Part shown: piece by piece, positions 313-62,444 of the stretch | Layout: the number at the start of each line of letters is the position of its first letter | Position numbering within the stretch: the first letter of the stretch is position 1 | Assembly (NCBI RefSeq): GCF_020616155.1 | Contig: NZ_CP085530.1 | Span: 2,447,501-2,511,500 of the forward strand | Source of the DNA: Vogesella sp. XCS3 | GTDB lineage: Bacteria > Pseudomonadota > Gammaproteobacteria > Burkholderiales > Chromobacteriaceae | Direction: 5' to 3' | DNA length: 64,000 nucleotides | Translations under genes and position numbers: made by a program | Notes under the pieces: model-generated | What the model saw: the letters and a program-made list of their open reading frames with translations, nothing else | What the model was told of the DNA's origin: nothing | The model's database searches: none

Positions 313-342
313 GCCTGCGGCCAACCCGGCCGCGCCACACGC

Positions 343-372
343 AAAACGCCCCGTCGAGACGGGGCGTTTTTT
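343..372 (+). terminator. Intrinsic terminator after pgi
   Basis: CGCCCCGT and ACGGGGCG form a GC-rich stem with A residues before and TTTTTT after it. It sits 30 nt after the pgi stop codon. It is typical rho-independent architecture. Confidence 0.9.
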
Positions 373-428
373 GTTTGGGCGGTGACGCGGGTGGTTGGGC
401 AACAGTGCACGTGGTGCACACCCGAGCC

Positions 429-461
429 GTAGCCCGGATAAGCCGCAGGCGTATCCGGGGG
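429..461 (+). repeat. REP-like palindromic repeat, left copy
   Basis: A 33-nt element starting GTAGCCCGGATAAGCC, with an internal stem CCCGGAT...ATCCGGG. It matches the reverse complement of 1676-1708 with a single mismatch (GTATCC against GCATCC), and 55508-55539 with a few more. It lies between the pgi terminator and the end of the unknown gene 580-1638. No transposase is nearby. Confidence 0.8.
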
Positions 462-579
462 GAATCAGCAACCAAGTGCAAACATGGTGCGGCCAACCTT
501 TGCGGTGGGCAAGGCATGGGCTATTACATAGGCAAATAAGTAAGAAGAAGGAAAACCGACAGCTCGGGCGTGAAGGTCG

Positions 580-2218: not shown

Positions 2219-2303
2219 GCGGCATTGTAGCGCGGTGGTGGCTGTTGGCCGCAGCGCGGGGGCGCTAGAATCGCCTATCCCCTTTTATTGCGGCCAACCT
2301 CAT

Positions 2304-3664: not shown

Positions 3665-4240
3665 CTAGCGCAGTACGCGCCCGCTGTCGAGATCGATAAT
3701 AGTGGAAGGCTTGCGGCGCTTGCCGATGCGGCCTTTGAGCGTCAGCACCTGTTCGCGGCCAAATGCCTGGCGACAGGCGCGTGCGGTTTTCAGCGACTTT
3801 TGCCCGGCGCGGTTGGCCGAGGTAGACACCAGCGGCGAGCCTAGCGCCTGGCACAGCGCAGCGGCTTCGCCATGGGCGCTGATGCGAACGGCAATTTTAT
3901 CATGCCGCCCGCGTAGCAGCGTGGGCACACGGCGCGATGCCGGCAATAAAAAGGTGTACGGGCCGGGCCAGTAGCGTTGCACGGTGGCCAGCTGCGCCGG
4001 GGTGAGCGGGCGGATCAGTGGGCGCAGCTGCTCCAGGTTGGCCGCAATCACGATCAGGCCTTTGTGCGTGGGGCGCGCCTTGATGGCCAGAATGCGGCGG
4101 ATGGCACGTACATTGAACGGGTCACAGCCCAGGCCAAAGCAGGATTCGGTAGCGTAGGCCAGCACGCCACCGGCGCGAAAGCGGCCACGGGCGGCGTCTA
4201 TCTGGGCCTGCGCCGGCAGGCGGGGAAACGGTTTTTTCAC
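3665..4240 (-). CDS. tsaC: Threonylcarbamoyl-AMP synthase (YrdC/TsaC)
   Basis: 191 residues, the short single-domain YrdC form without the C-terminal Sua5 extension. It shows YATESCFGLGCDP near residue 30, the KARPTHKGLIVI motif that binds ATP and bicarbonate-derived carbamate, and STSANRAGQ near the C-terminus. The cytosolic enzyme makes L-threonylcarbamoyl-AMP from threonine, bicarbonate and ATP, the first step of the t6A modification at position 37 of ANN-decoding tRNAs. It stands between a solute-binding protein gene and tolQ on the same strand, with 59 nt and 18 nt gaps. Confidence 0.95.
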   Translation of the reverse strand: MKKPFPRLPAQAQIDAARGRFRAGGVLAYATESCFGLGCDPFNVRAIRRILAIKARPTHKGLIVIAANLEQLRPLIRPLTPAQLATVQRYWPGPYTFLLPASRRVPTLLRGRHDKIAVRISAHGEAAALCQALGSPLVSTSANRAGQKSLKTARACRQAFGREQVLTLKGRIGKRRKPSTIIDLDSGRVLR

Positions 4241-5402: not shown

Positions 5403-6680
5403 TTACTTGGCGCGATTCAGCGCCTTGCCGCCGATATCGCGGCGCAGCTGCTTGCCGGCAAACTGGATCTGGTCTGCCACGGCGTAGGCTTTTTGCTGCG
5501 CCATCTTCACGCTATCGCCCAGGCCCACTACGCACAGCACACGGCCACCGCTGGTGACCAGCTGCTTGTCGGCATCGAAAGTGCTGCCGGCGTGGAAGGT
5601 CATGGTGTCTTCGGTGTGCGCCGGTATGCCGCTGATCAGGTCGCCCTTGCGCGGGGCTTCCGGGTAGCCATCAGCCGCCAGTACCACGCCCAGTGCCACA
5701 CGGCGGTCCCAATCGGCTTCTACCGTGTCCAGCTTGCCGTTCACGCCGGCTTCCAGCAGCACGGTAAAGTCGGACTTCAGGCGCGCCATGATGGGCTGGG
5801 TTTCCGGGTCGCCAAAGCGGCAGTTGAACTCGATGGTGAACGGGTTGCCGTCGGCGTCTATCATCAGGCCGGCGTACAGGAAGCCGGTGTAGGTGTGGCC
5901 GTCGGCCTTCATGCCACGCACGGTAGGCATGATGATTTCGCGCATCACGCGGGCGTGGATTTCCGGGGTCACCACCGGTGCCGGGCTGTACGCGCCCATG
6001 CCGCCGGTGTTGGGGCCCTTGTCGCCGTCCAGCAGGCGCTTGTGGTCCTGGCTGGTGGCCATGGCCAGCACGTTGTCGCCGTCTACCATCACGATAAAGC
6101 TGGCTTCTTCGCCCTGCAGGAAGTCCTCGATCACCACGCGCGCACCGGCGTCGCCCATCTTGTTGCCTACCAGCATGTCGTCGATGGCGGCGTGCGCTTC
6201 GTCCAGCGTCATCGCTACCACCACGCCCTTGCCGGCAGCCAGGCCGTCGGCCTTGATCACGATAGGCGCACCCTTGCGGCCAACGTAGTCGTGGGCGGCA
6301 GCGGCGTCGCTGAAGGTTTCGTAGCCGGCGGTAGGGATACCGTGGCGCTGCATGAAGGCCTTGGCAAAGTCCTTGGAGCTTTCCAGCTGCGCCGCGTACT
6401 GTGTGGGGCCGAAGATTTTCAGACCGGCAGCACGGAAGGCGTCTACCACACCGGCGGCTAGCGGCGCCTCGGGGCCGACTACCGTCAGCTCGATTTTTTC
6501 GTCACGGGCAAACGCTACCAGCTCGGGGATGGCGGTAATGGCCACATTGGTCAGATTCGGGTCCAGCTCGGTACCCGCATTACCCGGCGCCACATACACT
6601 TTGGACACGCGGCGGGATTGGGCAATGCGCCAGGCCAGTGCGTGTTCGCGGCCACCAGAGCCGATTACCAGGATTTTCAT
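5403..6680 (-). CDS. purD: Phosphoribosylamine--glycine ligase
   Basis: 425 residues, full length for PurD. The N-terminus is MKILVIGSGGREHALAWRI with the GGREHAL signature. ATP-grasp features follow: VIKADGLAAGKGVVVA (about 135-155), GEEASFIVMVDG, PNTGGMGAYSPAP, and the catalytic IEFNCRFGDPETQ near residue 290. The cytosolic enzyme joins glycine to 5-phosphoribosylamine in step two of purine synthesis. GAGGAAAG precedes the ATG by six nt. In many relatives purD follows purH directly. Here pagP lies between them, 55 nt upstream. Confidence 0.98.
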   Translation of the reverse strand: MKILVIGSGGREHALAWRIAQSRRVSKVYVAPGNAGTELDPNLTNVAITAIPELVAFARDEKIELTVVGPEAPLAAGVVDAFRAAGLKIFGPTQYAAQLESSKDFAKAFMQRHGIPTAGYETFSDAAAAHDYVGRKGAPIVIKADGLAAGKGVVVAMTLDEAHAAIDDMLVGNKMGDAGARVVIEDFLQGEEASFIVMVDGDNVLAMATSQDHKRLLDGDKGPNTGGMGAYSPAPVVTPEIHARVMREIIMPTVRGMKADGHTYTGFLYAGLMIDADGNPFTIEFNCRFGDPETQPIMARLKSDFTVLLEAGVNGKLDTVEADWDRRVALGVVLAADGYPEAPRKGDLISGIPAHTEDTMTFHAGSTFDADKQLVTSGGRVLCVVGLGDSVKMAQQKAYAVADQIQFAGKQLRRDIGGKALNRAK

Positions 6681-7302: not shown

Positions 7303-7335
7303 AAGGTTGGCCGCAAGGACAGCGCGGCCAACCTT
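7303..7335. terminator. Hairpin of two inverted uptake-like repeats after purH
   Basis: AAGGTTGGCCGC and GCGGCCAACCTT form a perfect 12-bp stem around a nine-nt loop, 13 nt past the purH stop. It lacks a long T-run, so termination may be partial. Its position after purH and just before the pagP start resembles paired uptake sequences used as terminators in Neisseria. Confidence 0.65.
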
Positions 7336-9442: not shown

Positions 9443-10474
9443 TTATGCCAGCGCGTCGGCTTCGGCGCTGGTGCTGCTGTCTGCTACGTATTGCAGCCGG
9501 TCCGAATGCCGGGCCAGGCTATCAAAATAATGCGCTACGGCTTGCTGCTGCTCGGCCGTGGTTTCCAGCTGGTACATCGCCTGGCGGAATTCGTTACTGC
9601 CGCGCAGCCCCTTGGTGTACCAGGCAATATGCTTGCGCGCGATACGGCTGCCGCTGTACTCCCCGTAAAAATCGTACAGCTCGGCCAGGTGCGCTTGCAT
9701 GATGGCGCTGATCTCGGCGATACGCGGCGGCGGCAACAGCTCGCCGGTATCCAGATAATGCTGGATCTCGCGAAAGATCCACGGACGCCCCTGTGCCGCA
9801 CGGCCGATCATGATGGCGTCGGCACCGGTGTAATCCAGCACGTATTTGGCCTTCTGCGGGCTGTCGATGTCGCCGTTGGCGATCAGCGGCATGCGCACGG
9901 CCTGTTTTACCGCGGCGATGGTGTCGTACTCGGCCGCGCCGCGGTACATGTCTTCGCGCGTGCGCCCGTGCAGGGCCAGGGCGGCGATGCCGGCATCCTC
10001 GGCCATGCGCGCTACCTGCAGCGCGGTTTTCACGTCCTGGCTCCAGCCGGTACGCGTTTTCAGCGTGACCGGCACGTCCACCGCCTTCACCACCGCTTCC
10101 AGAATGCGGCCAACGTTGTCCAGATCACGCAGCAAGGCGCTACCGGCGGCAACATTGCACACCTTCTTGGCGGGGCAGCCCATATTGATGTCGATGATCT
10201 GCGCGCCGTGTTCCACGTTCAGGCGGGCGGCGTCGGCCAGCATCTGCGCATCACCACCGGCAATCTGCACCACGATGGGCTCGACTTCGCCTTCGTGGTT
10301 GGCGCGGCGCAGCGTCTTGGGCGTGGTCCACAGTGCCTTGTTGGCGGTAATCATTTCCGATACCGCCATGCCCGCGCCCAGCTTTTTGCACAGCATGCGG
10401 AACGGCCGGTCTGTCACGCCCGCCATGGGGGCGACGATCAGACGGTTTTTCAGAACGTAAGGGCCGATTTGCAT
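9443..10474 (-). CDS. dusB: tRNA-dihydrouridine synthase B
   Basis: 343 residues, a flavin TIM-barrel enzyme. APMAGVTDRPFR lies at the N-terminus, and INMGCPAKKVCN holds the catalytic Cys near residue 105. Further marks are LKTRTGW, ALHGRTREDMYRGAA, IANGDI, and ADAIMIGRAAQGRPWIFREI for FMN phosphate binding. The C-terminal helical domain has RIARKHIAWYTKG. It reduces specific uridines in the D-loop of tRNA with NADPH. The DusB subgroup is assigned from the pairing with fis. A possible promoter lies in the AT-rich stretch 10530-10570. Confidence 0.96.
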   Translation of the reverse strand: MQIGPYVLKNRLIVAPMAGVTDRPFRMLCKKLGAGMAVSEMITANKALWTTPKTLRRANHEGEVEPIVVQIAGGDAQMLADAARLNVEHGAQIIDINMGCPAKKVCNVAAGSALLRDLDNVGRILEAVVKAVDVPVTLKTRTGWSQDVKTALQVARMAEDAGIAALALHGRTREDMYRGAAEYDTIAAVKQAVRMPLIANGDIDSPQKAKYVLDYTGADAIMIGRAAQGRPWIFREIQHYLDTGELLPPPRIAEISAIMQAHLAELYDFYGEYSGSRIARKHIAWYTKGLRGSNEFRQAMYQLETTAEQQQAVAHYFDSLARHSDRLQYVADSSTSAEADALA

Positions 10475-11129: not shown

Positions 11130-14100
11130 GTGTCACGTTTGCCCGACCAGACCCGCCTCGCCCGCCTGCAACTGGCGGGTATGCTGAGCCTGGTAATTAC
11201 CGTGGTGGTCTTGCTGGCCAGCTACTTTTTTTACCAGCAATGGCAGGATTACCAGAGCAACCGCCAAGCCGTGCAACAGCAAGCGCTGCAGCACGGGCAG
11301 ACCTTCCTGCGCACCTGGGGTGACGACGCCATCATCACGCTGGACACGCTGGATAAGCAGACACATACCTTGCTGCGCCAGCGTATCCGCGAGCAAGTTG
11401 ACCAGGCCCACGCCCTGGCTACCGCGCTGTATCTGACCCATGCGCACTCCAGCCAGCCTACCAGCCGCTCGCGGCGTGAAATCGTCGAGGCACTGCGCCC
11501 GCTGCGCTACTTTCATGGCCGCGGCTATTTCTTTATCGATACCTTGCAGGGCGACTGCGTACTACTGCCTACCACGCCGGCACTGGAAGGAACATCGCTA
11601 CTGAATAACCGTGACGACGCCGGCACCTACATCATGCGCAGCCTGATCGCCGCCACCCAGAACGAAGCGGGGGCAGGCTTTGCCAGCTACCGCTGGTACC
11701 GCCCCGGCGAAAAGCGCATGGCCGAAAAAGTAGCCTACGCACGGCGTTTCGAGCCCTTGGGCTGGCTGATCGGTGGTGGCGAATACGTAGACAATGTGGC
11801 CAAAGACTTGCAAACGCAGGGCCTGGCGCTGCTGGCGCAAATGCGTACCGGCCAGCGCGGCGGCTTTATCGTGCTGGACCAGCAAGGCCGGCAACTGCAA
11901 GGTTTTCTGCCTGGCAAGACCACGCTTGAAACCCGCCTGCAGCAACGCCTGCAGCATGCACCACTTGGCAGCTTCGTCGATTTCAGCCTGCAAGGCGTGC
12001 CATACACCGCCTACGTTGGCCGCATGGCCGCCTGGGGCTGGCGCGTGATTGCCGTCGCCCCCAGCAGCATGCTGCTAGGGACGGACGACAAGCTGCAGCA
12101 TCGCCTAGGCGAGCAAACCCAGGCCCGCGTACTGGCCACGCTGGGTATCTTTGTGGCTGCCTTGCTGCTGGCCGTGCTGTTCTCGCTGTATTTCTCGCGC
12201 TGGATGCGCCAGCTGGCCGATGGCTACCGCCAGCAAATTGAAAGCCGGCAAAACGCGCTGGAGCAAAACGCGCGCGAAATCGAGCTGACCCGCTACATGA
12301 GCGACAGTGCGGCCGACATCATCGTGCTGTGCGATGCGCAAGGCCAGGTGGCTTACCGCAACCAGCGCGCACGCGAATGTTTTGACGGCTGCGAGCAGGA
12401 CACCCTGCAGCAATTGTTTGCCAGCACCCTGCCCGATGGCGATAGCGCCGAGCTGCAGCTGATGTGCTGCCACGGGCCGGTGATGCTGGAAGTGAAACTC
12501 AGCACGGTAGACTACCGGGGGGAGCAATACCGCTGCGCCACCGCCCGTGACATTGGCTCGCGCATCGAACAGGAACGCGAGCTGCGCCTGGCGTCCAAGG
12601 TATTTGAAGCCAGCACCGAAGCCATCGTGATTACCGACCCCGCCAGCCGTATCGTGGCGGTGAACCAGGCCTTTACCGCCATCACCGGCTACAGCGAAGC
12701 CGAGGCCCTGGGCCAGACCCCGGCCCTGCTCAGCTCGGGCAAGCACGACGCCGACTTCTTCCACGACCTGTGGAACCACCTGACGGCGCGCGGCCAGTGG
12801 GCAGGCGAGATCTGGAACCGCCGCAAAAGCGGCGAAGTCTACCCCGAGTGGCTCAGCATCAACGCCCTGCGCGATAGCCACGGCACGCTCACCAACTATA
12901 TCGCGCTGTTCTCCGACATCAGCGAGCGCAAGGAAGCCGAAGCGCGCGTACAGCACCTGGCCGAGTACGACTACCTGACCGACCTGCCCAACCGCCTGCT
13001 GCTGATGGACCGCCTGCAGCAATCGCTGCGCGTGGCCGAGCGCAGCCGCCACAAGGTGGCCGTACTGTTCATGGACCTGGACCGTTTCAAGAACATCAAC
13101 GACACCCTGGGCCACGCCACCGGCGACACCTTGCTGCAAGAAGTGGCACGCCGCACCCGCGCCGTAGTGCGCGAAATGGACACCGTTGGCCGCACCGGCG
13201 GCGACGAGTTCGTGATGATCCTGCCCGAGCTGGCCGACAACGCCCAGGCCGCACTGATCGCCGAGCGCGTACTGGACACCCTGCGCCAGCCCTTTGTGCT
13301 GGATGGCCACCAACTGGTGATTACCGCCAGCATCGGCATATCCATCAGCCCGGACGATGGCAAGGACGCCCAGCTATTGCTGAAAAATGCCGACATGGCC
13401 ATGTACGAAGCCAAAGCACAGGGCCGCAACAACTACCGCTTCTTTACCGAACGCATGACCGCCGAGGTGCGCCAGCGCCTGCTGCTGGAAAACCGTCTGC
13501 GCGGCGCACTGGCACGCCAGGAGCTGCACCTGATGCTGCAGCCCAAGTTCTGGGTAGCCGACCGCCGCCTGTCCGGCTTCGAGGCGCTACTGCGCTGGAC
13601 CGATGCTGACGGCGTAGCCACCTCGCCGGCCGAGTTCATCCCGGTGGCGGAAGAGTCCGGCCTGATTGTCGAAATCGGCAGCTGGGTGCTGCGCCAGGCC
13701 TGCCAGCTGGCTGCCAGCTGGCCCGCCCCGGCCAACGGTACCGCGCTGACCATGGCGGTGAATGTCTCCCCGCGCCAGCTGGCGCAGCCGGGCTTTGCCG
13801 AGCTGGTAGCCAGCATCCTGCGCGACACCGGCCTGGCGGCAGCGCAGCTGGAAATCGAAGTCACCGAAAGCGCCTTGCTGGAGCGCACCGGCAACGTGAA
13901 AGCGGCACTGGATGGCTTGAAAGCGCTGGGCGTGCGGCTGGCGGTGGATGATTTCGGCACCGGCTATTCCAGCCTGGCCTATCTGAAAGACTTTGCGCCC
14001 GACACGGTAAAAATCGACCGCTGCTTTGTGACCGACCTGCAAAACCGCCACGACAACGCCGCCATCGTGCTGGCCATCATCACGCTGGCCAAGAGCCTGA

Positions 14101-21201: not shown

Positions 21202-21329
21202 GCGTGTCTCCCTGCGTTAGCCAGCAATTATGCCAATAAACTGGCAGAGCTGCGGCCAACATTCTGTCACCCTTGAAACTGTCGGGCCCGCACCGATATG
21301 CAAACCAGACAGCCCACGGAACCCCGCAT

Positions 21330-43607: not shown

Positions 43608-46292
<2,685 letters not shown>

Positions 46293-48031: not shown

Positions 48032-48625
48032 TCAGGCAAAACGATGCAGGCCGCTTTCGGTCAGAAGGTAGTCGAGGCGAACGTCCCACGGCTCGCGCGG
48101 CACACGGGCCACGCGCTGGCAGTCGTAGGCCACACCCACCAAAAGCGGCTTGCCATAGCGCGGGTGACGGCGGCGGAAGGCCAGCGTGCTGTCGTAGAAA
48201 CCGCCGCCCTGCCCCATGCGGTAGCCGTCGGCGTCGATGCCCAGCAAGGGCACAAACAGTACGTCCAGCCGCTCGGCGCGCAGCTGCGGGCCGGCGTACT
48301 CGGCAATGCCGTAGCGCGGGTGGGTATACCAAAGGTTGGCCGCACCCAGGCGGGCAAACCACAGCCGGCGCCCGCGCTGCGGGATCACCGGCAGGTACAG
48401 CGCCGCACCACGGCCGCGCGCGGCGGCCATCAGCGGCGCCATGTCCAGCTCGCTGCCGGCGGCGATATAGGCACCCAGGTGCTTGCCGCGGCATAACAAG
48501 CGCGAGGCATGGCGGGCAATGGCGCGGGCGGCCTGCTGGCGATAGGCACGCGGCAAGGCCATACGGGCGCGGCGCAGCGTTTTGCGCAGCTGTGCCTTGG
48601 CGCTAAGCAGGTCGGCGGCTGTCAT
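48032..48625 (-). CDS. 5-formyltetrahydrofolate cyclo-ligase
   Basis: 197 residues: KAQLRKTLRRARMALP at the N-terminus, GAYIAAGSELDMAPLM, LFVPLLGIDADGYRMGQGGGFYD with the ATP-binding GxGGGFYD loop, and VGVAYDCQRV near the end. It converts 5-formyl-THF to 5,10-methenyl-THF with ATP. In proteobacteria it commonly lies downstream of zapA and 6S RNA (ygfA locus), exactly as here. The coding region contains a repeat copy at 48332-48343. Confidence 0.95.
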   Translation of the reverse strand: MTAADLLSAKAQLRKTLRRARMALPRAYRQQAARAIARHASRLLCRGKHLGAYIAAGSELDMAPLMAAARGRGAALYLPVIPQRGRRLWFARLGAANLWYTHPRYGIAEYAGPQLRAERLDVLFVPLLGIDADGYRMGQGGGFYDSTLAFRRRHPRYGKPLLVGVAYDCQRVARVPREPWDVRLDYLLTESGLHRFA

Positions 48626-50260: not shown

Positions 50261-50790
50261 GCCGCGCCTTTCAAGACCAAAGGTTGGCCGCAGGCCACCA
50301 GCGTGACGCGCTGGCATACCGCTGCCACGTCCTGGTTCAGCCGCCCCAGCTCGTCGACAAAATGGCGGGTTTCCGCCCCCAGCGGCACCACGCCCCAGCC
50401 CACCTCGTTGCTCACCAGCACGATCTGCGCCGGCGGCGCGGCCAACACCGCCAGCAAGCTGCTGCGTTGCTGCTGCCAGGCGTCGGCGTCGAACTGGCCG
50501 TGCTCGTCGAAAAAGCGCATCAGCCACATGCCCAGGCAATCCACCAGCACCAGGCTACCCGGGGCGGCCTGCTGCAGCGCCTCGCCCAGCTTGCGGCCAA
50601 CCTCGGCCAGGCCCCAGTGCGCCGGACGTCGCGCCCGATGGTGGGCGATGCGCTCGGCAAAGGCCGCATCGCTACGGCGCTCGGCGGTGGCCACGTAGCA
50701 CACGGCGCCGGCGTGCTGCAGCGCCAGGCTTTCGGCGTAGCGGCTTTTGCCGCTGCGGGCACCGCCGCTGATCAGGTGGGTAGTGGTCAT
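50257..50790 (-). CDS. cobU: Adenosylcobinamide kinase / guanylyltransferase
   Basis: 177 residues. The P-loop HLISGGARSGKSRYAESLA is followed by YVATAERRSDAAFAERIAHHRARRP, with the guanylylation-site His in RIAHHRARRP, VDCLGMWL, LVSNEVGWGVVP and LNQDVAAVCQRV. It phosphorylates adenosylcobinamide and forms AdoCbi-GDP. ATG 50790 starts MTTTHLISGG. Between btuB and this gene lies a 139-nt gap with terminator-like hairpins. The end of the gene is an AAAGGTTGGCCGCA copy encoding CGQPLV. Confidence 0.95.
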   Translation of the reverse strand: MTTTHLISGGARSGKSRYAESLALQHAGAVCYVATAERRSDAAFAERIAHHRARRPAHWGLAEVGRKLGEALQQAAPGSLVLVDCLGMWLMRFFDEHGQFDADAWQQQRSSLLAVLAAPPAQIVLVSNEVGWGVVPLGAETRHFVDELGRLNQDVAAVCQRVTLVACGQPLVLKGAA

Positions 50791-50863: not shown

Positions 50864-50929
50864 GGGGTTGGCCGCACACGGGCGGCCAGCAGGCAAGACC
50901 CCGCGCCAGCGGGGTGCAGGCACGTGGGC

Positions 50930-52756
50930 TTACTGGGCGTAGCGTACGCCGACAAACCAGCCACGGCGCGGCTGATTGTAGTCTTTTACCGTTTCGTAAC
51001 GCTTGTCACCCACGTTGGTCAGCTTGGTATTCAGCGTCCACTGCTTGTCCAGCTGGTAGTCGGCACCCAGGTTCACCACGCCGTAGCCGCGCAGGTACTC
51101 GGTATTGGCCGTGCTGGTAGGGCGCTTGCCGGCGGCACGCAGCTCGGCGCTCAGCGTAGTGCGGTCCAGCGCCAGACTGGCGGTAACGCCACCGTGCAGC
51201 TTGCTGCGGTACTGCAGTATCTTGCCGGTTTTCTCGTCGCGCGCACGCTGCGAGGTCACGTTGGCCGCCAGGTTGATACCGGCGATCACGGTGCTGCCTT
51301 CCAGCGTCTGGCCGGTGATGTGGGCTTTATCGATATTGATCACGCTGGAATAGTCGGCGTTACCGGCGATCAGGTTTTCAATACGGTTATCAAAGGCGGT
51401 GAACTTCACGCTGTTGCTACCCTGGCGCCACTGCGCGGACAGCTCGCGGTTACGCGCTTCTTCCGGTTTCAGCTTGGGGTTGCCCTGGTAGCCAAAGGAC
51501 AAAGGCCAGTACAGGTCATTGAAGCTTGGCGCCTTGAACGCTGTACCGTAACCCACGCGCAGCAGCCAGCCGGCAGCAGGAACAAAGCCGTAGCCGACCT
51601 GGCCGGTACGATGGCCGCCAAACTGCGAGTTGTCGTCATAACGCACGCTACCCTGCAGGCGGTGGGCACCAAACTCGCCCTGATAGCCGGCAAACGCGGC
51701 GTTCACACTACGGCGGGTCTGGGTGAAGGCCGTGCTGCTGAGGACGTGCTGCTCGGTGTTGACCAAACCCAGCGCCAGCAGGCCGGCACTGCCCAGGCTC
51801 AGATCATTCTGCCACTGCCACTCATTCTGGCGGGTTTCATAGTAGCTACTGGGCTTCACGAAGTTGCCGTTGGTATAGTTCAGCGACTTGTCGGCGCTAT
51901 AGCTGTAACGCAGGCTACTGTTCCAGTGTTCGCCCAGACGGTTTTTCAGCTCCAGGCTCTGGCCTACCAAGCGGGAGTTGGCTTCGTCCTGCGCCTTGGC
52001 CGAACCGTCGTATTCGTTAACGCTTTCCGACTGGAACGCCGTCAGGTTCAGGCTGTGGCCAGGCGCCAGCTGGTGCTGCACGCTGGCGTTGTAGGTGGTG
52101 TTCTCGTAGCCGTCACGGTCCGGGTTATAGGTAGGCAGACGGTTGCTGCGCGCCGAAATGCCTTCGGTACGATTATGGCTAAAGGCCAGGTTGAACGCGG
52201 TACGGTCTACCTTGCCGGAGATACCGGCGCCCACGACACGCTTGCCTTCGGCACCCACGCCCACGTTGGCCGACAGCGCTGGCGCGCCGCTGCCGCGCTT
52301 GGTAAAGATCTGCACCACGCCGCCGATGGCGTCGGCACCGTACAGGCTGGATGCCGGGCCGCGCAGGATCTCGATGCGCTCGATGGCGTCCGGGTTCAGG
52401 TATTCCAGCGAGGTCGTCCCTGCTGTAGCCGAAACAACGCGCACGCCGTCAATCAGCACCACGGTCTGTTTGGCCGTAGCGCCGCGCAGCATCAGGCTGC
52501 TGCTCTTGCCTTCGCCACCGTTGCTGTAGAACTCCACGCCAGCTTCGCGACTGAGCAGCTCGGCGACGGTGAGGTTGCCGGACTGCGCGATTTCCTCGCG
52601 GCCCAGCACGGTGATATCGGATAGCACTTTGGCCACCGGGGTGGTGGTACGCGTGGCGGTTACGACCACTTCATCCAGGGTGACAGGCTGGTTGGCCATG
52701 GCGGCCTGGGCACAGGCCAGCGCTACCAGCGTGGCCAGGGGTTTGCTTTTGAACAT
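50930..52756 (-). CDS. btuB: TonB-dependent vitamin B12 receptor BtuB
   Basis: 608 residues. Signal peptide MFKSKPLATLVALACAQAAMA. The TonB box is in LDEVVVTATR. The plug domain has GNLTVAELLSREAGVEF and IERIEILRGPASSLYGADAIGGVVQI (core RGPASSLYGADAIGG). The 22-strand barrel ends LTNVGDKRYETVKDYNQPRRGWFVGVRYAQ, a standard receptor C-terminus (core RRGWFVGVRY). Outer-membrane uptake of cobalamin is inferred from the size class and the cobalamin riboswitch directly upstream. Confidence 0.94.
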   Translation of the reverse strand: MFKSKPLATLVALACAQAAMANQPVTLDEVVVTATRTTTPVAKVLSDITVLGREEIAQSGNLTVAELLSREAGVEFYSNGGEGKSSSLMLRGATAKQTVVLIDGVRVVSATAGTTSLEYLNPDAIERIEILRGPASSLYGADAIGGVVQIFTKRGSGAPALSANVGVGAEGKRVVGAGISGKVDRTAFNLAFSHNRTEGISARSNRLPTYNPDRDGYENTTYNASVQHQLAPGHSLNLTAFQSESVNEYDGSAKAQDEANSRLVGQSLELKNRLGEHWNSSLRYSYSADKSLNYTNGNFVKPSSYYETRQNEWQWQNDLSLGSAGLLALGLVNTEQHVLSSTAFTQTRRSVNAAFAGYQGEFGAHRLQGSVRYDDNSQFGGHRTGQVGYGFVPAAGWLLRVGYGTAFKAPSFNDLYWPLSFGYQGNPKLKPEEARNRELSAQWRQGSNSVKFTAFDNRIENLIAGNADYSSVINIDKAHITGQTLEGSTVIAGINLAANVTSQRARDEKTGKILQYRSKLHGGVTASLALDRTTLSAELRAAGKRPTSTANTEYLRGYGVVNLGADYQLDKQWTLNTKLTNVGDKRYETVKDYNQPRRGWFVGVRYAQ

Positions 52757-53225: not shown

Positions 53226-54260
53226 ATGCCACGTATCCCCGCCCCCAATCTGTCTACCCGCCAAGCCGCCGAAGCCCGCCAGCAGCAGCTGACCAAACCC
53301 GCCGGCAGCCTGGGCAAACTGGAGCAGCTCGCCATCACCCTGGCCGGGCTGCAGGGGCGCGACATCCCGCTACCGCTGTCGCCGGCCATTACCGTGTTTG
53401 CCGGCGACCACGGCGCCTGCGCCGAGGGCGTATCGGCTTTCCCGCCAGAAGTCACCGGCGCCATGGTGGCCAACTTCGTCCACGGCGGTGCCGCCATCAG
53501 CGTACTGGCGCGTGCCAACCAGGCACGGCTGGAAGTGGTGGATGCCGGCGTGGCCAGCGACCTGTCCGCCCTGCCCATCGTGCACGCCAAGGTACGTGCC
53601 GGCAGCGGCAACCTGCGCCGTGAAGCGGCCATGAGCCGCCAGGAGGCCGAAGCCGCGCTGCAGGTTGGCCGCGACGCCGCCCGCCGCGCCATAGCCGACG
53701 GTGCCACGCTGCTGATTGCCGGCGACATGGGTATTGGCAACACCACGCCGTCTGCCGCGCTGATTTGCCGCCTCACCGGCCACAGCGTGGAGGCCATTGT
53801 GGGCCGCGGCACCGGCGTCAGCGATGCCGGCCTGGCGGTAAAACGCCAGGTCGTGGCCGATGCGCTGGCCCGCGTGGCCGGGCAAACGCTGGACGGCCAC
53901 GGCGTACTGGCCGAGCTGGGCGGGCTGGAAATCGCCGCCATGGCCGGTTTTTATCTGGAAGGCGCGCGCCAGGGCGTACCGCTGTTGCTGGATGGCTTCA
54001 TCAGCACCGCTGCCGCGCTGGTAGCCCACGCCATCGACGCCGATATCGCCCCATGGCTGCTGGCCAGCCATTGCTCGCAGGAAACCGGCCACGCGCTGGC
54101 ACTACAGGCGCTGGGCCTGAGCCCGCTGATCGACCTGGGCTTCCGCCTGGGCGAAGGCAGCGGCGCCGCCGCCGCGCTGCCACTGCTACAGCAAGCCATC
54201 GCGCTGCACGCCGGCATGGCCACCTTTGCCGAGGCCGGCGTGGCGGGCAAAAGCGCCTGA
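53226..54260 (+). CDS. cobT: Nicotinate-nucleotide--dimethylbenzimidazole phosphoribosyltransferase
   Basis: 344 residues: KPAGSLGKLEQLAITLAGLQG, ITVFAGDHGACAEGVSAFP (core FAGDHG), the nucleotide region DGATLLIAGDMGIGNTTPSAAL (core GDMGIGNTTPSAA), VGRGTGVSD, and FRLGEGSGAAAALPLLQ near the end. It forms alpha-ribazole phosphate for the lower ligand of cobalamin. AAGGA precedes ATG 53226; upstream in-frame starts are less likely. It is divergent from btuB and heads cobT-cobC-cobS. Confidence 0.97.
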   Translation: MPRIPAPNLSTRQAAEARQQQLTKPAGSLGKLEQLAITLAGLQGRDIPLPLSPAITVFAGDHGACAEGVSAFPPEVTGAMVANFVHGGAAISVLARANQARLEVVDAGVASDLSALPIVHAKVRAGSGNLRREAAMSRQEAEAALQVGRDAARRAIADGATLLIAGDMGIGNTTPSAALICRLTGHSVEAIVGRGTGVSDAGLAVKRQVVADALARVAGQTLDGHGVLAELGGLEIAAMAGFYLEGARQGVPLLLDGFISTAAALVAHAIDADIAPWLLASHCSQETGHALALQALGLSPLIDLGFRLGEGSGAAAALPLLQQAIALHAGMATFAEAGVAGKSA

Positions 54261-55074: not shown

Positions 55075-55908
55075 ATGCGCACCCTCATCCTGGCGATCCA
55101 GTTTCTTACCCGCCTGCCCACGCCGCAGCTGAAAACCTTCGACCCGGCGTGGCTGGCCGACGCCGCGCGCTGGTTTGCCCCGGTGGGTGTGCTGGTGGGT
55201 GCCATCGTATGGCTGGCGGTGCTGGCGGGCAGCCTGGTGGATCCCTGGTTGGCCGCATTGGCCGGCCTGCTGGCCTGGCTGTGGGTCACTGGCGGCCTGC
55301 ACATCGACGGTCTGGCCGACCTGGCCGACGCGCAGGGCGCAGCGCACCGCTCGCGCGAACGCTTTCTTGAGGTGCTGAAAGACCCGCATCTGGGCAGCTT
55401 TGGCGTACTGAGCCTGGCCACGCAGCTGATAGTGAAACTGGTGTTGCTGATGCTGCTGGTGAAGCTGGGCGCGACTGGCCTGGGCGGCTTGCCGGGTACG
55501 CTGGTTTCCCCGGATGTGTCTGCGGCTTATCCGGGCTACCACGGCGCCCAGGACGGCATCGCAGCGTTGAAAAGGTTGGCCGCCACGCTGGGCGGGCTGG
55601 TACTGGTACCAGCCTGGGCGCGGCTGTTCACCGTGGCGTGGTCGGCCACGCTGCCAAGCCTGGCGGCGGGTAGCGGCGAACGCTTTGCCTGGCGCCCGCA
55701 CTGGCTGAGCTTCTGGCTGTGTGGCCTGCTGTTGGCAGCCGCCAGCGCCTGGCTGGCACCGGTACTACTGCTGGCACCACTGGCAGGGGTGTTCTGGTGG
55801 GCCTACCTGAAGCGCAAACTGGGCGGCATGACCGGAGACTGTCTGGGTGCCGGCATCGAGGTATGCGAAAGCCTGCTGCTGCTGGCGCTGGTGGTGGCAG
55901 CACACTGA
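55075..55908 (+). CDS. cobS: Adenosylcobinamide-GDP ribazoletransferase (cobalamin synthase)
   Basis: 277 residues, a polytopic membrane enzyme. It begins RTLILAIQFLTRLPTPQLK, and has the conserved GGLHIDGLADLADAQGAAHRSRERFLEVLKDPHLGSFG (cores GGLHIDGLADL and DPHLGSFGV) and YLKRKLGGMTGDCLGAGIEV at the end. It joins AdoCbi-GDP and alpha-ribazole to give cobalamin. Family members usually have about 245-255 residues. The surplus lies at about 130-175, where a REP-like repeat (55508-55539) is read in frame as SPDVSAAYPGY, and an AAGGTTGGCCGC copy follows at 55572. Motifs on both sides are intact, so the enzyme is probably active. Confidence 0.93.
   Translation: MRTLILAIQFLTRLPTPQLKTFDPAWLADAARWFAPVGVLVGAIVWLAVLAGSLVDPWLAALAGLLAWLWVTGGLHIDGLADLADAQGAAHRSRERFLEVLKDPHLGSFGVLSLATQLIVKLVLLMLLVKLGATGLGGLPGTLVSPDVSAAYPGYHGAQDGIAALKRLAATLGGLVLVPAWARLFTVAWSATLPSLAAGSGERFAWRPHWLSFWLCGLLLAAASAWLAPVLLLAPLAGVFWWAYLKRKLGGMTGDCLGAGIEVCESLLLLALVVAAH
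55508..55539 (-). repeat. REP-like repeat inside cobS
   Basis: Matches the repeat at 1676-1708 except for two bases in the loop and one C less at the end. The stem CCCGGAT...ATCCGGG is conserved except in the loop. It keeps the cobS frame and encodes a Pro/Gly-rich stretch in a hydrophilic loop. Confidence 0.85.
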
Positions 55909-55969: not shown

Positions 55970-56476
55970 ATGAAACTCGACAGCTTTGGCCTGGCGGCCG
56001 TCATCGTCATCCCAGTCAGCACCGTGCTCGTGTGGGTGGTAGCGCACTTCGCGCTGCCTGCCCTGCCCGTCTTGCTCGGCGGCGTTTTGCTCAGCCTGCT
56101 GCTGGCGCTGCGCATCAAACCGCTGCCATGGTCAGCCTTGCCCGCCGCGCCGTCACGCTGGCAGCAAGCGCTGAACCTGGCCGTGTGGCCCATCCTGACG
56201 CTGCCGTGGCTGCTACCGCAAGCCACGCTGCTGTTCGATGTCGTGTTCAGCTGTTGGATAGTCACCACGCAAACGCTGGCCTGGCGTCAACAGGGCACGC
56301 TGGCGCTAGGTTGGCCGCAACGCACGCTATGGCTGATCGCGGCCGCCTTGTTTCTGCTGACCAGCCTGCTCGCCAGTGATAGAAGCGTACTGGCGCTGGT
56401 ATTCGGCGTCTTGTTCGGCTGGGTAGGCCTCAGCGGCCGCCGCCCGCGCTGGGGCAGCCCGCCACCGCAGGCATGA
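55970..56476 (+). CDS. Small integral membrane protein, possibly iron-regulated
   Basis: 168 residues with four or five hydrophobic helices: LAAVIVIPVSTVLVWVVAHFALPALPVLLGGVLLSLLLAL (two helices, about 8-46), LAVWPILTLPWLLPQ, LFDVVFSCWIVTTQTLAW and LIAAALFLLTSLLA with LALVFGVLFGWVGL. No named family recognised and no catalytic motif. The start codon is five nt after the Fur-like site, with no clear ribosome binding site, so the message may have a very short leader. It lies downstream of cobS but is separated by its own promoter. Confidence 0.75.
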   Translation: MKLDSFGLAAVIVIPVSTVLVWVVAHFALPALPVLLGGVLLSLLLALRIKPLPWSALPAAPSRWQQALNLAVWPILTLPWLLPQATLLFDVVFSCWIVTTQTLAWRQQGTLALGWPQRTLWLIAAALFLLTSLLASDRSVLALVFGVLFGWVGLSGRRPRWGSPPPQA

Positions 56477-56479
56477 AAA

Positions 56480-56508: not shown

Positions 56509-56546
56509 GCGGGTAGTGCGGCCAACCTTGGCCGCCGGGTCTAGCG

Positions 56547-57805: not shown

Positions 57806-59767
57806 TTAGCTGCCGATCACACCACCATCGAGCTTGCGCACCACCACGGTGGCGGCGCGTGGACGGCCGGCTTTCGGGCCATCCGGCCAGCTGGAAATGG
57901 CCAGCGGCTTGGCCGGGTCATTGCGCTCGTCAGCCGGTTCGCCCGGGTGCTGGATGTTGACGAACATGGTCTTGTTGTCCGGGGTAAAGGCCAGACCGGT
58001 GATTTCACAACCATTCGGCCCGGTAAGGAAGCGGCGGAATTCGCCGGTTTCCGGCACCACGGCCAACATCTGGTTGTTGCCCATGTCCTTGTATTCTTTC
58101 ATGTTGACGGTAGAGGTCGACACGTCGGTTTGCACCCACAGCACGCCCAGCTGGTCGAACTTCAGGCCGTCCGGGCTACCGAAGGCATCGCCCTTGATAT
58201 TGCCCACGTGTTCTTGCTTGGCTGCGTCCGGGCGGCCGGCCAGTGCAAAAATATCCCACTTGAAACCAGCGCTGGTGGCATCGCCGCCGTTTTCTTGCCA
58301 GCGGATGATATGGCCGAACAGGTTGGCATTACGCGGATTGGCCGCATCGGCACCCGGCTTGCCTTCCTTGCCGCGATCGCTGTTGTTGGTCAGTGTGCAG
58401 TACACCTCGCCAGCTTTGCGCGGGTTAACGGCAATCCACTCCGGGCGGTCCATCTTGGTGGCGCCGGCAATGTCGGCAGCCATACGGGCCTTGATCACCA
58501 CGTCGCCCTGGTTGGCAAAGCCCTTGTCGGCGGTCAGGCCGTTCTGGCCGGCCACCAGCGGCAGCCAGCTACCGCTGCCGTCCGCGTCGAAACGCGCCAC
58601 GTACAGCGTACCTTCTTCCAGCAGCTGCATATTGGCCTTGCGGTTTTTCGGGTCGTACTTGTTCTTGGAAACAAACTTGTAGATGTATTCGAAGCGCTGG
58701 TCGTCGCCCATGTACACCACCACATGGCCGTTGGCCGCGATGGTGGTGGTGGCGCCTTCGTGCTTGATACGGCCCAGTGCGGTGCGCTTCACCGGCTTGG
58801 CTTTCGGGTCGAACGGGTCGATTTCTACCACCCAGCCAAAGCGGTTGGCTTCGTTGGGGTTCAGCTGCAGGTCAAAGCGGAAGTCTTCCCACGCCCACTT
58901 ATAGCCGGCACCGGTAGGGGAAATGCCGTAGCGTTTTTCCAGGTCGGTCAGGTTGCCGGACTCGTTGGCAAATACGCCGTCGAAGTTTTCTTCGCAGGTG
59001 AGGTAAGTGCCCCACGGGGTCGGGCCGCTAGCACAGTTCTGGAAGGTACCCAGGATTTCTACTGCTTGCGGGTCCGCTTCGGTTTTCATCAGGTCGTGGC
59101 CACGTGCCGGGCCGCCAATGGCGATCGGGGTATTGGCGGTAATGCGGCGGGCGTACTTGGACGGACGCACAACTTGCCAGCCTTTGCCGGTGGCTTCCAC
59201 TTCAACAATGGAAACACCCACCGCGGCCTGGGCTTTCTTCACTTTATCGCCGCTCCAGCCGTTCATGCCGTTTACGTGCAGCAGGCCGTCGTCGGTGTAT
59301 TCGTGGTTAATCGCCAGCAGGCCGTGCTTGGAGCCGGTGGCACCCAGTGGCAGCGGGTAGTAGTGCATGCCGTCGTGGTGCATGCCGGCCTGGGCTTCTT
59401 GCTCGGCGGCGGTATTGGAGGCGTCTTGCTTGAACGCCGGCATATTGCCGGGAATACCCACCGGGTCGCCCCAAGCGTACAACACTTCAGCGGTGTAGCC
59501 TGCCGGTACGACTACCTTGTCTTCAAAACCGAATGGCACGGGTGCAAAACCCAGCTTGGGTGCCGCCAGGGTACCGACACCCTGTGCTGCTTCGGCCAGC
59601 GTGGTAAATGTGCCGGTAAACAAGCCGGCCATACCCAGTGCGCCGGTACCTTGCAACAGGCCGCGGCGCGACAGGCGCGCTTCCAGCACATCGGACAGTG
59701 CCGGGTTATTACAGGTATTGGCGGTGTCATTCACACCGTGGTGTTTGATTTTGTAGCCGTCTGACAT
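57806..59767 (-). CDS. phoX: PhoX-family alkaline phosphatase (DUF839), Tat-exported
   Basis: 653 residues. A Tat signal with LSRRGLLQGTGALGMAGLF is preceded by a typical longer N-region. The mature protein is a beta-propeller enzyme: LLAINHEYTDDGLLH, ARGHDLMKTEADPQ, NCASGPTPWGTYLTCEENFDG (core PTPWGTYLTCEEN), IKHEGATTTIAANGHVVVYMGDDQRFEYIYKF (core GHVVVYMGDDQRFEYIYKF), and the late TGLAFTPDNKTMFVNIQHPGE. Members use calcium and iron and release phosphate from organic esters in the periplasm. ATG 59767 or ATG 59779 may be the start. A Pho-box-like site is 79 nt upstream. Confidence 0.92.
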   Translation of the reverse strand: MSDGYKIKHHGVNDTANTCNNPALSDVLEARLSRRGLLQGTGALGMAGLFTGTFTTLAEAAQGVGTLAAPKLGFAPVPFGFEDKVVVPAGYTAEVLYAWGDPVGIPGNMPAFKQDASNTAAEQEAQAGMHHDGMHYYPLPLGATGSKHGLLAINHEYTDDGLLHVNGMNGWSGDKVKKAQAAVGVSIVEVEATGKGWQVVRPSKYARRITANTPIAIGGPARGHDLMKTEADPQAVEILGTFQNCASGPTPWGTYLTCEENFDGVFANESGNLTDLEKRYGISPTGAGYKWAWEDFRFDLQLNPNEANRFGWVVEIDPFDPKAKPVKRTALGRIKHEGATTTIAANGHVVVYMGDDQRFEYIYKFVSKNKYDPKNRKANMQLLEEGTLYVARFDADGSGSWLPLVAGQNGLTADKGFANQGDVVIKARMAADIAGATKMDRPEWIAVNPRKAGEVYCTLTNNSDRGKEGKPGADAANPRNANLFGHIIRWQENGGDATSAGFKWDIFALAGRPDAAKQEHVGNIKGDAFGSPDGLKFDQLGVLWVQTDVSTSTVNMKEYKDMGNNQMLAVVPETGEFRRFLTGPNGCEITGLAFTPDNKTMFVNIQHPGEPADERNDPAKPLAISSWPDGPKAGRPRAATVVVRKLDGGVIGS

Positions 59768-59863: not shown

Positions 59864-59884
59864 GTCATGGTTGGCCGCAATAAA

Positions 59885-59908
59885 AAAGGCAGACTCTCGT
59901 CTGCCTTT
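59885..59908 (-). terminator. Terminator after the SPOR gene
   Basis: AAAGGCAGAC-TCTC-GTCTGCCTTT is a ten-bp stem followed on the minus strand by TTTAT. A GGTTGGCCGC copy lies next to it at 59869-59878. Confidence 0.92.
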
Positions 59909-59917
59909 GTCTCCCGC

Positions 59918-60772
59918 CTAGCGGCACGCCTGGACCGGTATGCCTGGTAGCAGCCGCTTTTGTAGCGCTTTGAGTTTGCTGGCGGTAGCCTCGTCCAGCT
60001 GGCGGAAGCTCAGCGTGGTGACTTTCACCACATCACCGCGACTATCCACTTTGGCCTTGTCGTAACCGGCGGCCTTCAGACGCTTCACCAGTGCCTGCGC
60101 GCCCTCTTCGCGGCCAAACAGGCCCAGCGACAAATGGCCCTTGAACTCGCCGGCGGTCTGCACGATGTAGCTGTCAAAACCTTTGGCCTTCAGCTCGGCT
60201 ACCAGTGTCTGGGTTTCTGCCTGTGTGGCTAGCGGCGGGTAGAACACCCAGGTCTTGCCCGAGCCACGGCGCTGGTCTACGACGCTGGCCTGTGGCGGGC
60301 TGGACAACTTCAGCAAGGGCACACCACCTTGCACACGCGCCAGCTGTTGCGGGTCCAGCCCACCCCAGCTGTAGCACAGTGTCGCGGCGGCCGGTTTGGC
60401 ATCAGCGACTTTGGTCTCGGCCGGTTTCGCAGCCTTGTCATCTGCTTTAGCTTCCTGCACTTTGGTTTCAGGCTTGGCGGCCAGCACTGCGGGCTTGGTC
60501 TCTTTCGGCGCAGCTACCGTTGCAGTGGCACTGGCCACAGCGGGTGGCGCCGGCATGGCCTCGGCCTGCGGCATGCTGCTGGCGATATCGGTCGCCGGCG
60601 CGCTGGCTTCTGGCGCACTGGCTAGCAGCGGCTTCCAGTTAGCCGGCAGCATTTTCAGCTGTGCTGCATTGACTTCCTGCGCGTGAATATCCACTTCGGG
60701 CTTTTGTTTCAGCGCGCCATACAGCGCGGCCAACAGGTTGACCACTACCAGCGTTCCAATAAACCACTTCAT
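59918..60772 (-). CDS. SPOR-domain membrane protein
   Basis: 284 residues. One membrane helix at the N-terminus (WFIGTLVVVNLLAALYGAL) is followed by a long Ala/Pro/Lys-rich linker (about 50-130) and a C-terminal SPOR-type domain (about 170-245: WVFYPPLATQAETQTLVAEL, GEFKGHLSLGLFGREEGAQALVKRL with core LSLGLFGREEGAQAL). SPOR domains bind denuded septal peptidoglycan. The start overlaps the coaX stop by four nt, so it is the last gene of the rfaE2-birA-coaX unit. Confidence 0.88.
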   Translation of the reverse strand: MKWFIGTLVVVNLLAALYGALKQKPEVDIHAQEVNAAQLKMLPANWKPLLASAPEASAPATDIASSMPQAEAMPAPPAVASATATVAAPKETKPAVLAAKPETKVQEAKADDKAAKPAETKVADAKPAAATLCYSWGGLDPQQLARVQGGVPLLKLSSPPQASVVDQRRGSGKTWVFYPPLATQAETQTLVAELKAKGFDSYIVQTAGEFKGHLSLGLFGREEGAQALVKRLKAAGYDKAKVDSRGDVVKVTTLSFRQLDEATASKLKALQKRLLPGIPVQACR

Positions 60773-61482
60773 GAGCCGTTCGCCACGTTTGCTAAACCAT
60801 AGATGACAAGATTATCCACGATACGGGCATCAAACGGGAGGTGTGGCCGCAACAAAGCCGCGTCACCACCGGTGAGCAGCACCTGCGGTGCCTGCTGCCG
60901 CTGTGCGGCCAACCTGCGTACCACACGCTCTATCGCCCCGCACAAGGCATCGACCACCCCGGTAGCCAATGCGTCTTCCGTACCCTGTGGAAAGTCACAC
61001 ACCTGCCCTGCCGCTCGATCCAGTTGCGCAGTATTGTGCGCCAGTGCCTGCAGCATCAGGCGGTAGCCCGGCAGGATGTCACCGCCCAGATAGTCACCGT
61101 CGGCCGTCAGCACTTCAATCGTCAGCGCGGTACCTGCACTGGCAATCACGACATCATCCGCACAGAGCTGACGGGCACCCAGCACGGCTAGCCAGCGGTC
61201 GGCCCCCTGCTCGGCCACTTGCCGGTAGTGATTGCGCACACCCAGTGCGGCCGGCTGTGCGCGCTGCCATTGCACGGCACAGGGTGCGGCGTCTGTAATA
61301 GCTGCACGCACGCTGCTACTGGCCACATTGGCTGCCAATACAGCGTCTACTGCCAGGCTGTGCCAATGCGCGGCCAACTGGCCCAGATCCGCATGCGGCA
61401 AGGCTTGTACCGGGGACAAGGTTTCACCATCCCACAGCGCCCACTTGACCCGGCTGTTGCCCGCGTCGATCAGCAGCTTCAT
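60769..61482 (-). CDS. coaX: Type III pantothenate kinase
   Basis: 237 residues: LLIDAGNSRVKWALWDG (phosphate-binding start), LGVRNHYRQVAEQGADRWLAVLGA with core GADRWLAVLGA, VIASAGTALTIEVL, GGDILPGYRLMLQAL and LLTGGDAALLRPHL. It phosphorylates pantothenate in CoA synthesis and needs a monovalent cation. It overlaps birA and the SPOR gene by four nt each. Fused or adjacent birA-coaX is typical for Neisseriales and relatives. Confidence 0.96.
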   Translation of the reverse strand: MKLLIDAGNSRVKWALWDGETLSPVQALPHADLGQLAAHWHSLAVDAVLAANVASSSVRAAITDAAPCAVQWQRAQPAALGVRNHYRQVAEQGADRWLAVLGARQLCADDVVIASAGTALTIEVLTADGDYLGGDILPGYRLMLQALAHNTAQLDRAAGQVCDFPQGTEDALATGVVDALCGAIERVVRRLAAQRQQAPQVLLTGGDAALLRPHLPFDARIVDNLVIYGLANVANGS

Positions 61483-62444
61483 GGCTGCGGCCTCAGGCTG
61501 ACTTCACCTACGTGGAACACGCGCGGCCCGTCGGCGGTATCCACCTGCAAGGCACCGCTCTCATCCACCCCGATAGCCATACCGTCCACCGGCTGCCCGT
61601 GGCTGAAAGTCAGCCGTACCGGTTGCTGCAGGTAGGCGGCCAAACCCAGCCACTCGTCGCGGAAAGCAATAAAACCCTCGCGGTCAAACTGGCTCAATAC
61701 TTGCGCCAGCTGGTTCAATAGCGCCGCCATCAGTTCATTGCGGCCAACCTTGATGCCGGCATCCGCCAGGTTAGCCACCGGCTGGTCAACCTCACCCGGG
61801 TTAGCCACATTCAGGCCGATACCAATCACCACGGCTGCCGGGCCTAAGGCATCGCCAGACAGCTCGATCAGGATACCCGCCAGTTTGCGGCCATCCAGCA
61901 ATACATCGTTAGGCCACTTCAGGCTCACCGGGGCGCCAAACTCGCGCAGAGCACGCACCATGGCAATCCCCACCACCAACGACAAGCCGGCCAAACCGGA
62001 CAAACCCCGCTCGAAGCGCCACAGCAAGGAGAAGGTCAAGCCTGCGCCCAGGCGCATCTGCCAGCGCCGCCCCAGCCGGCCACGGCCAGCCGTCTGCCTC
62101 TCGGCGGCCAGCACCAGACCATGCGGCGCACCTTGTGCGGCACGGGTCATCAGCTGGGTATTGGAGGAGTCAATCTGCTCGGCCAGTGCCAGGGTAAACA
62201 CGTTGGCCGCATACTCATCCAGCGCGGCACGAATGCTGGCCACATCCAGCAAGGCAAAGGGCTGTGGCAAACGATAGCCCTGACCACGCACGCTGAATAC
62301 TGTCAGGCCGAACTCGTTTTCCAGCTGGTGCACCGCCTGCCACACCAAAGTGCGCGAGCAGCCCAGCTGCTGTGCCATGGCCTCACCGGAATGGAACTTG
62401 CCATCTGCCAGCGTACGCAATACCGCAAAAGCCAGGTCGCTCAT
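61479..62444 (-). CDS. birA: Biotin--protein ligase / biotin operon repressor
   Basis: 321 residues. The N-terminal winged helix (MSDLAFAVLRTLADGKFHSGEAMA, GCSRTLVWQAVHQLENEFG) can bind DNA. The catalytic domain has QTAGRGRLGRRW (biotin-AMP loop), LKWPNDVLLDGRKLAGILIE (core WPNDVLLDGRKLAGIL) and a C-terminal SH3-like domain. It attaches biotin to acetyl-CoA carboxylase and may repress biotin genes. It overlaps rfaE2 by four nt upstream. A full GCGGCCAACCTT copy is at 61740. Confidence 0.96.
   Translation of the reverse strand: MSDLAFAVLRTLADGKFHSGEAMAQQLGCSRTLVWQAVHQLENEFGLTVFSVRGQGYRLPQPFALLDVASIRAALDEYAANVFTLALAEQIDSSNTQLMTRAAQGAPHGLVLAAERQTAGRGRLGRRWQMRLGAGLTFSLLWRFERGLSGLAGLSLVVGIAMVRALREFGAPVSLKWPNDVLLDGRKLAGILIELSGDALGPAAVVIGIGLNVANPGEVDQPVANLADAGIKVGRNELMAALLNQLAQVLSQFDREGFIAFRDEWLGLAAYLQQPVRLTFSHGQPVDGMAIGVDESGALQVDTADGPRVFHVGEVSLRPQP

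Follow-up and report, generated by a model that had tools for sequence, protein, structure and literature searches.

A short word dispersed through a 64,000-nucleotide stretch of the Vogesella sp. XCS3 chromosome (contig NZ_CP085530.1, positions 2,447,501 to 2,511,500; hereafter the window) is predicted, with a probability of about 0.8, to be a DNA uptake sequence (DUS) of Vogesella read by the minor pilin ComP, with the 13 bp form AAGGTTGGCCGCA and the core GTTGGCCGC. Such a tag would most likely allow Vogesella and some of its relatives to tell their own DNA from foreign DNA and import it, as Neisseria does with a different tag. The predicted uptake role is well supported by anatomy, and we infer that ComP is the receptor, that the cells can be transformed and that the motif enhances uptake.

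The window contains 35 exact copies of the 10-mer GCGGCCAACC (16 on the plus and 19 on the minus strand), compared with a mean of 0.70 and a maximum of 3 in 100 dinucleotide shuffles. The original prediction, made from the letters of the window, had counted about 32 by hand, with the same first and last coordinates, and about 14 copies reaching the 12-mer GCGGCCAACCTT, of which there are exactly 14. Its “many one-mismatch copies” hold for the last base only: 27 of the 46 one-mismatch copies of GCGGCCAACC retain GCGGCCAAC and are altered only at the final C, while the remaining 19 lie near the mean of 16.3 in shuffles (a mean covering copies with up to one mismatch). Because the one-mismatch excess is confined to the last base, with none at the core positions, the true core is the 9-mer GCGGCCAAC, read as GTTGGCCGC on the other strand, with 62 copies in the window versus 3.6 expected. 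Similarly, in 444 kb of the same chromosome perfect GTTGGCCGCA occurs 289 times versus 4.4 expected, while its 27 single changes at positions 1-9 amount to 80 copies (a hand sum of the per-variant rows) versus ~90 expected; thus one-mismatch core copies are not in excess in either the window or the 444 kb. A sequence logo built from 100 intergenic core sites, taken as the reverse complement, gave the 13 bp AAGGTTGGCCGCA (A 66%, A 69% and G 70%, then the core, then A 85%), beyond which information content falls to background, indicating no longer repeat. Across the 3.89 Mb genome, GCGGCCAACC occurs 854 times forward and 879 times in reverse, 1733 in total or about one copy per 2.2 kb, versus 12 (5 and 7) for the reversed-word control; the excess thus extends well outside the window.

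Sites are maintained between species. In alignments of the window to seven congeneric genomes, the exact 9-mer sites kept were compared with composition-matched words: 46 of 53 sites were kept in G007 and 34 of 39 in G009 (control 67% for both), 39 of 44 in G008 (50%), 29 of 45 in G006 (38%), 12 of 26 in G010 (24%), 17 of 41 in G005 (24%) and 10 of 29 in G001 (25%). The contrast was greater outside predicted genes (10/11 versus 49% in G008, 8/11 versus 29% in G006, 7/10 versus 16% in G005 and 4/8 versus 8% in G001), where terminator function could contribute to conservation. Sites are also gained, with relatives holding 5-17 sites absent from the window. The second replicon (contig C2, 164.5 kb, 52% GC), probably a plasmid, carries only 3 copies versus 191 in 444 kb of chromosome, a depletion for which its lower GC (0.52) accounts only in part. 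As judged on this replicon, the motif is depleted in mobile DNA.

At the family level, GCGGCCAACC is a property of the genus: it occurs 1406-1867 times in every one of the 13 Vogesella genomes (including Vogesella alkaliphila, V. indigofera, V. margarita and “Beta proteobacterium L13”) and at most 74 times in each of 48 further genomes (24 from the rest of the family and 24 from other families; in all, 37 of the 61 family genomes were covered by this count). The motif is also wider than this one organism, as two more spellings, new here, were found in sister genera: word counts in 20 kb stretches revealed a common GTTGGCCG with other endings, so that across the family it ends in CA, AA or AG. 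In whole-genome counts, GTTGGCCGAA was abundant in eight of the 61 family genomes (G014 2168, G021 1851, G017 1368, G016 1245, G013 1104, G022 893, G023 579 and G029 183 copies; at most 78 elsewhere), among them Crenobacter oryzisoli (G023) and Gulbenkiania mobilis (G016), and GTTGGCCGAG in two (G024 1940, G015 1590; at most 165 elsewhere); moreover, a Crenobacter luteus record carries eight GTTGGCCGAG in 10.5 kb. One of the three spellings is thus present in 23 of 61 genomes and 7 of 10 genera. None was found in genera g7, g8 and g9 or in nine of ten g6 genomes, and no other dominant word emerged from 40-120 kb samples of g6, g7, g8 and g9 (one genome each of g7 and g6, two of g8). The tenth g6 genome, G017, has 1368 GTTGGCCGAA where the other nine have 11-36, and all ten carry a ComP-type gene; the tag was likely lost in the nine or gained in G017 within a single genus. 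In another g6 genome (G030, L067-L068), tandem arrays of short AGACAG- and GGGCTG-like units dominate the word counts. Outside the family, none of 291 genomes (300 drawn from the order) stood out when read by eye, the largest count being 221 (G214, G231) and the largest motif/control ratio among genomes with at least 50 copies about fivefold (G123, 82 versus 16).

Composition, codon usage, terminators or a dispersed repeat almost certainly do not explain this excess, even though the motif lies in gene-end hairpins and reads Ala-Ala-Asn in frame at 114 of 281 coding 9-mer sites. In 339 genes predicted by our own crude caller (81% coding, missed genes being included in “intergenic”), GCGGCCAACC occurred 118 times versus 11.6 under 100 synonymous-codon shuffles (largest 22), and TGCGGCCAAC 200 times versus 6.9 (largest 13). 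Codon usage, which accounts for no more than a tenth of the 10-mer counts, was thus rejected as the cause; furthermore, TGCGGCCAAC is denser outside predicted genes (0.98/kb) than inside (0.56/kb). Close pairs are no more numerous than under random placement (28 among 385 sites; random mean 22.6, largest 41), although 26 of the 28 are inverted. Sixteen of the pairs lie outside predicted genes, and several inverted ones, preceded by an A run and followed by a T run, look on inspection like intrinsic terminators. A longer dispersed repeat of the REP type was rejected, as conservation ends at 13 bp. Shuffle, pair and logo counts together refute such causes as a full explanation. Another candidate is that the motif has no role in uptake and is bound by a protein that organises or repairs the chromosome, as sites of the Chi, KOPS, nucleoid-occlusion or partition type are. 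This would fit the genome-wide occurrence, chromosomal enrichment and conserved sites, but is very unlikely: strand polarity is absent, copies occur about once in 2.2 kb, there are three spellings in one family most of which has none, and the terminator-like inverted pairs are as known for DUS. By GC skew, the leading-type and other strands carry 82 and 93 copies of the 10-mer and 159 and 194 of the 9-mer (120 and 143 at a further word length), a mild lagging-type excess; with the 854/879 balance, this bears out the balanced orientation first described and rejects polar replication motifs of the Chi or KOPS type. The proposal that the motif behaves like a DUS therefore survived the tests of genome-wide excess, strand bias and codon usage, and gained further support from the sites kept between species, the near-empty second replicon, the terminator-like pairs and a ComP homologue.

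The 62 core copies in the window, taken from exact word counts, are as follows (coordinates are those of the 9 bp core GTTGGCCGC; 12-mer denotes GCGGCCAACCTT / AAGGTTGGCCGC):

317..325, minus: core GTTGGCCGC, 10-mer exact
489..497, minus: core, 12-mer AAGGTTGGCCGC
2244..2252, plus: core only; inverted pair with 2290
2290..2298, minus: core, 10-mer exact; pairs with 2244
4037..4045, plus: core, 10-mer exact
6276..6284, minus: core only
7306..7314, plus: core, 12-mer; left arm of terminator-like inverted pair
7324..7332, minus: core, 12-mer; right arm of same inverted pair as 7306
10106..10114, minus: core only
12015..12023, plus: core only
13185..13193, plus: core only
14141..14149, plus: core only
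14906..14914, plus: core only
15468..15476, plus: core, 10-mer exact
16453..16461, minus: core only
18263..18271, plus: core only
19607..19615, plus: core only
20190..20198, minus: core, 10-mer exact
20444..20452, plus: core, 12-mer; left arm of inverted pair
20487..20495, minus: core, 12-mer; right arm of inverted pair
21252..21260, minus: core only
21729..21737, minus: core only
23973..23981, minus: core, 10-mer exact
25229..25237, plus: core, 12-mer
26782..26790, plus: core, 10-mer exact
27076..27084, minus: core, 10-mer exact
28405..28413, minus: core only
28860..28868, plus: core, 12-mer
32294..32302, plus: core, 10-mer exact
32886..32894, minus: core only
34126..34134, minus: core only
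34646..34654, plus: core only
34980..34988, minus: core, 10-mer exact
35305..35313, plus: core, 10-mer exact
37573..37581, plus: core only; left arm of inverted pair
37598..37606, minus: core, 12-mer; right arm of inverted pair, then T run
42022..42030, minus: core, 12-mer
42579..42587, minus: core, 10-mer exact
42706..42714, minus: core only
43947..43955, minus: core only
44634..44642, plus: core only
45387..45395, plus: core, 10-mer exact
48335..48343, plus: core, 12-mer
49534..49542, minus: core only; inverted pair with 49559
49559..49567, plus: core, 10-mer exact; pairs with 49534
50283..50291, plus: core, 12-mer
50438..50446, minus: core only
50593..50601, minus: core, 10-mer exact
50867..50875, plus: core, 10-mer exact
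51260..51268, plus: core only
53664..53672, plus: core, 10-mer exact
55248..55256, plus: core, 10-mer exact
55575..55583, plus: core, 12-mer
56310..56318, plus: core, 10-mer exact
56518..56526, minus: core, 12-mer
58730..58738, plus: core only
59870..59878, plus: core, 10-mer exact
60726..60734, minus: core only
60905..60913, minus: core, 10-mer exact
61370..61378, minus: core only
61740..61748, minus: core, 12-mer
62202..62210, plus: core only

A palindrome, CGATATCG, is also frequent in the window (24 occurrences with both strands counted, versus 2.3 expected) and is not among the top 9- to 12-mers of a 380 kb sample.

In Neisseria the receptor of the DUS is the minor pilin ComP. The original prediction had suggested looking for a ComP-like minor pilin, and the genome encodes a ComP homologue of 138 aa (C1:3106142-3106558), ~2 kb from pilQ, with a prepilin motif and a ComP_DUS domain (PF16732, 32.4 bits versus a cut-off of 27.3; PF07963, 28.1 versus 21.2). 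Its three best matches among Protein Data Bank sequences are ComP chains (E 9e-8 to 8e-6), followed by a match at 7e-4, and its structural model (pLDDT 90.5) found only two Foldseek matches at E <= 1e-3, both ComP. In an unrooted tree of 34 ComP rows (one a duplicate) and 11 others, ComP of this family and of Neisseria form one clade without PilE-like pilins (support 100/99), within which the Vogesella rows form a single clade (97/92), matching the one dialect. A full-length ComP homologue is present in all 23 dialect-bearing genomes, while the four g9 genomes have only weak or partial ComP-type matches. ComEC is present in this genome and in 59 of the 61 family genomes, with and without the motif, and failed as a discriminator between them. 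PF16732 was dropped as a receptor marker for lack of specificity: it matches 56 of 61 relatives, and its best match in this genome is PilE-like.

The ComP gene is the last of a fimT/pilV/pilW/pilX-like operon in G024 and lies 3' of a PilC-like gene in Gulbenkiania. The G024 position is the one taken by PilE-type minor pilins that end a fimT-pilV-pilW-pilX operon; the difference is that sequence and tree group the protein with ComP and separate it from the PilE-like paralogues in these genomes. Three side observations concern ComP-type genes: i) residues 95-97 of the Vogesella sp. XCS3 protein (L055:6142-6555) form a loop N-[T/V/A]-D, found in ComP of 22 of the 23 dialect-bearing genomes and, by eye, in none of seven motif-less ones, a weak contrast as six of the seven are one clade; ii) in a motif-less g8 genome the ComP-type frame (G083:C1:465057-465458) has an in-frame TGA; iii) the GTTGGCCGAA-rich G021 (genus g10; L092) has two ComP-like pilin genes in tandem (C3:1518672-1519636).

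How the new words relate to the Neisseria DUS was assessed by ungapped comparison with seven dialects, three of them entered by hand. In DUS orientation the words read AGGTTGGCCGCA (Vogesella), AGGTTGGCCGAA (GTTGGCCGAA type) and AGGTTGGCCGAG (GTTGGCCGAG type), with best matches of 8/12, 9/12 (mucDUS) and 8/12; letter shuffles reached these in 0.6-0.9% of cases for AGGTTGGCCGAA and 4-6% for AGGTTGGCCGAG. At 10 of the 12 positions the letter occurs in at least one DUS dialect (P ~0.007, three dialects entered by hand); only G at +5 and, in the centre of CTG, C at +7 do not. The eight described dialects all have CTG at +6 to +8 and A at +10 (PMC3630211, in excerpt). That A is found in 85% of the 100 intergenic Vogesella core sites and in GTTGGCCGAA, and not in GTTGGCCGAG. 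Both systems share a 10-12 bp word in thousands of copies and both orientations, genus-level dialects, a ComP clade and terminator-like inverted pairs, and C at +9 of the new words is as in king3DUS; on the other hand, the new words have CCG instead of CTG, G at +5 and, in the GTTGGCCGAG dialect, G at +10, and they sit in a sister family (DUS features after PMC3630211, in excerpt). The first description had set the motif apart from the Neisseria dialects, which is not supported in that form: CCG replaces the CTG core, but on the other strand 8 of 12 positions (Vogesella) or 9 of 12 (commonest sister spelling) align to DUS without gaps, and the putative receptor shares one clade with Neisseria ComP. 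Given the 9/12 match of AGGTTGGCCGAA to mucDUS, it is doubtful that the motif is unrelated to DUS. The motif is likely, if not proven, to be a diverged relative of DUS, and common descent appears likelier than not. Because the CTG core is lacking, we do not file it among the described Neisseriaceae dialects; the most fitting description is a new dialect group, of DUS-ComP type, that belongs to Vogesella and its sister genera and is most likely a divergent one outside Neisseriaceae proper.

It is fairly probable that uptake-tagged transformation is no invention of the Neisseriaceae: the orthologous ComP of a sister family would read a second alphabet, GTTGGCCG followed by CA, AA or AG, with the supposedly invariant CTG turned into CCG; receptor and tag would predate the family split, the tag being lost in several genera, or have passed between families, and each genus' change of spelling would mark a switch in ComP specificity. 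Several observations weigh against the main reading, a ComP-read uptake sequence related to DUS: i) the CTG core of the eight described dialects is replaced by CCG; ii) the Vogesella spelling alone, AGGTTGGCCGCA, resembles DUS at a shuffle P of only 0.05-0.08, and all these P values are somewhat flattering because the test was made after the likeness had caught the eye; iii) nearly all of the 38 family genomes without the motif likewise show a ComP-type match that spans most of the model, so that ComP presence failed to discriminate motif-bearing genomes, and the query alignment, built from 10 dialect-bearing genomes, is biased towards those; iv) ComEC was not found in two of 13 genus assemblies, G002 (330 contigs) and G008 (88% complete); v) coding sites in the most distant species are kept barely above control (6/21 versus 26.5% in G001, 10/31 versus 24.7% in G005). 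The first two points, and the ComP-type genes of motif-less g6 and g7 genomes, would suit an uptake sequence of independent origin, in which an unrelated word evolved upon pre-existing ComP-type pilins and resembles DUS by chance. Such an origin is possible but rather unlikely, given the 9/12 match of the commonest sister spelling to mucDUS (P 0.006-0.009) and the ten positions with a dialect letter. It is less likely still that the sequence is read by another pilin or surface protein. The genome does encode further pilins (three PF16732 matches, seven matches to the ComP alignment). The word of the uptake signal sequence (USS) of Pasteurellaceae differs from the Vogesella motif. The USS is likewise a short dispersed self-DNA tag with dialects, for which a different minor pilin receptor, ComN/PpdA, has been proposed; it differs in that receptor and in lineage (PMC12616744, in excerpt). 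Nevertheless, the Vogesella candidate groups with the demonstrated Neisseria receptor by sequence, tree and fold searches, and its single clade matches the single dialect.

If ComP reads the motif, the competence pilus carrying this type IV minor pilin would bind free motif-bearing DNA, which retraction of the pilus via PilQ and passage via ComEC would then import; homologous recombination would spread motif copies over the chromosome, and biased uptake would retain them. Consistent with the original statement that no description of the motif as an uptake sequence was known, open-licence PubMed Central (preprints excluded) yielded no account of the motif (for the bare 9-mer, among the matches listed), nor any uptake sequence described for Vogesella, Gulbenkiania or Crenobacter. 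Published work reported five related genomes without obvious DUS, found no ComP in C. violaceum by BLAST and inferred that DUS arose after the split from that species (PMC3630211, in excerpt). If true, our reading would question that inference, extend the textbook case of bacterial-sex self-recognition beyond Neisseriaceae proper and mean that the CTG core is not essential for recognition by ComP. Three spellings with their receptors would become available in bacteria that are mostly environmental. Among these, V. indigofera is genetically tractable, receiving plasmids by conjugation and permitting allelic exchange, and makes a visible blue pigment (PMC12826045, in excerpt). How ComP reads sequence and how dialects switch would thus become directly testable, and Vogesella, Gulbenkiania and Crenobacter would gain a practical transformation tag.

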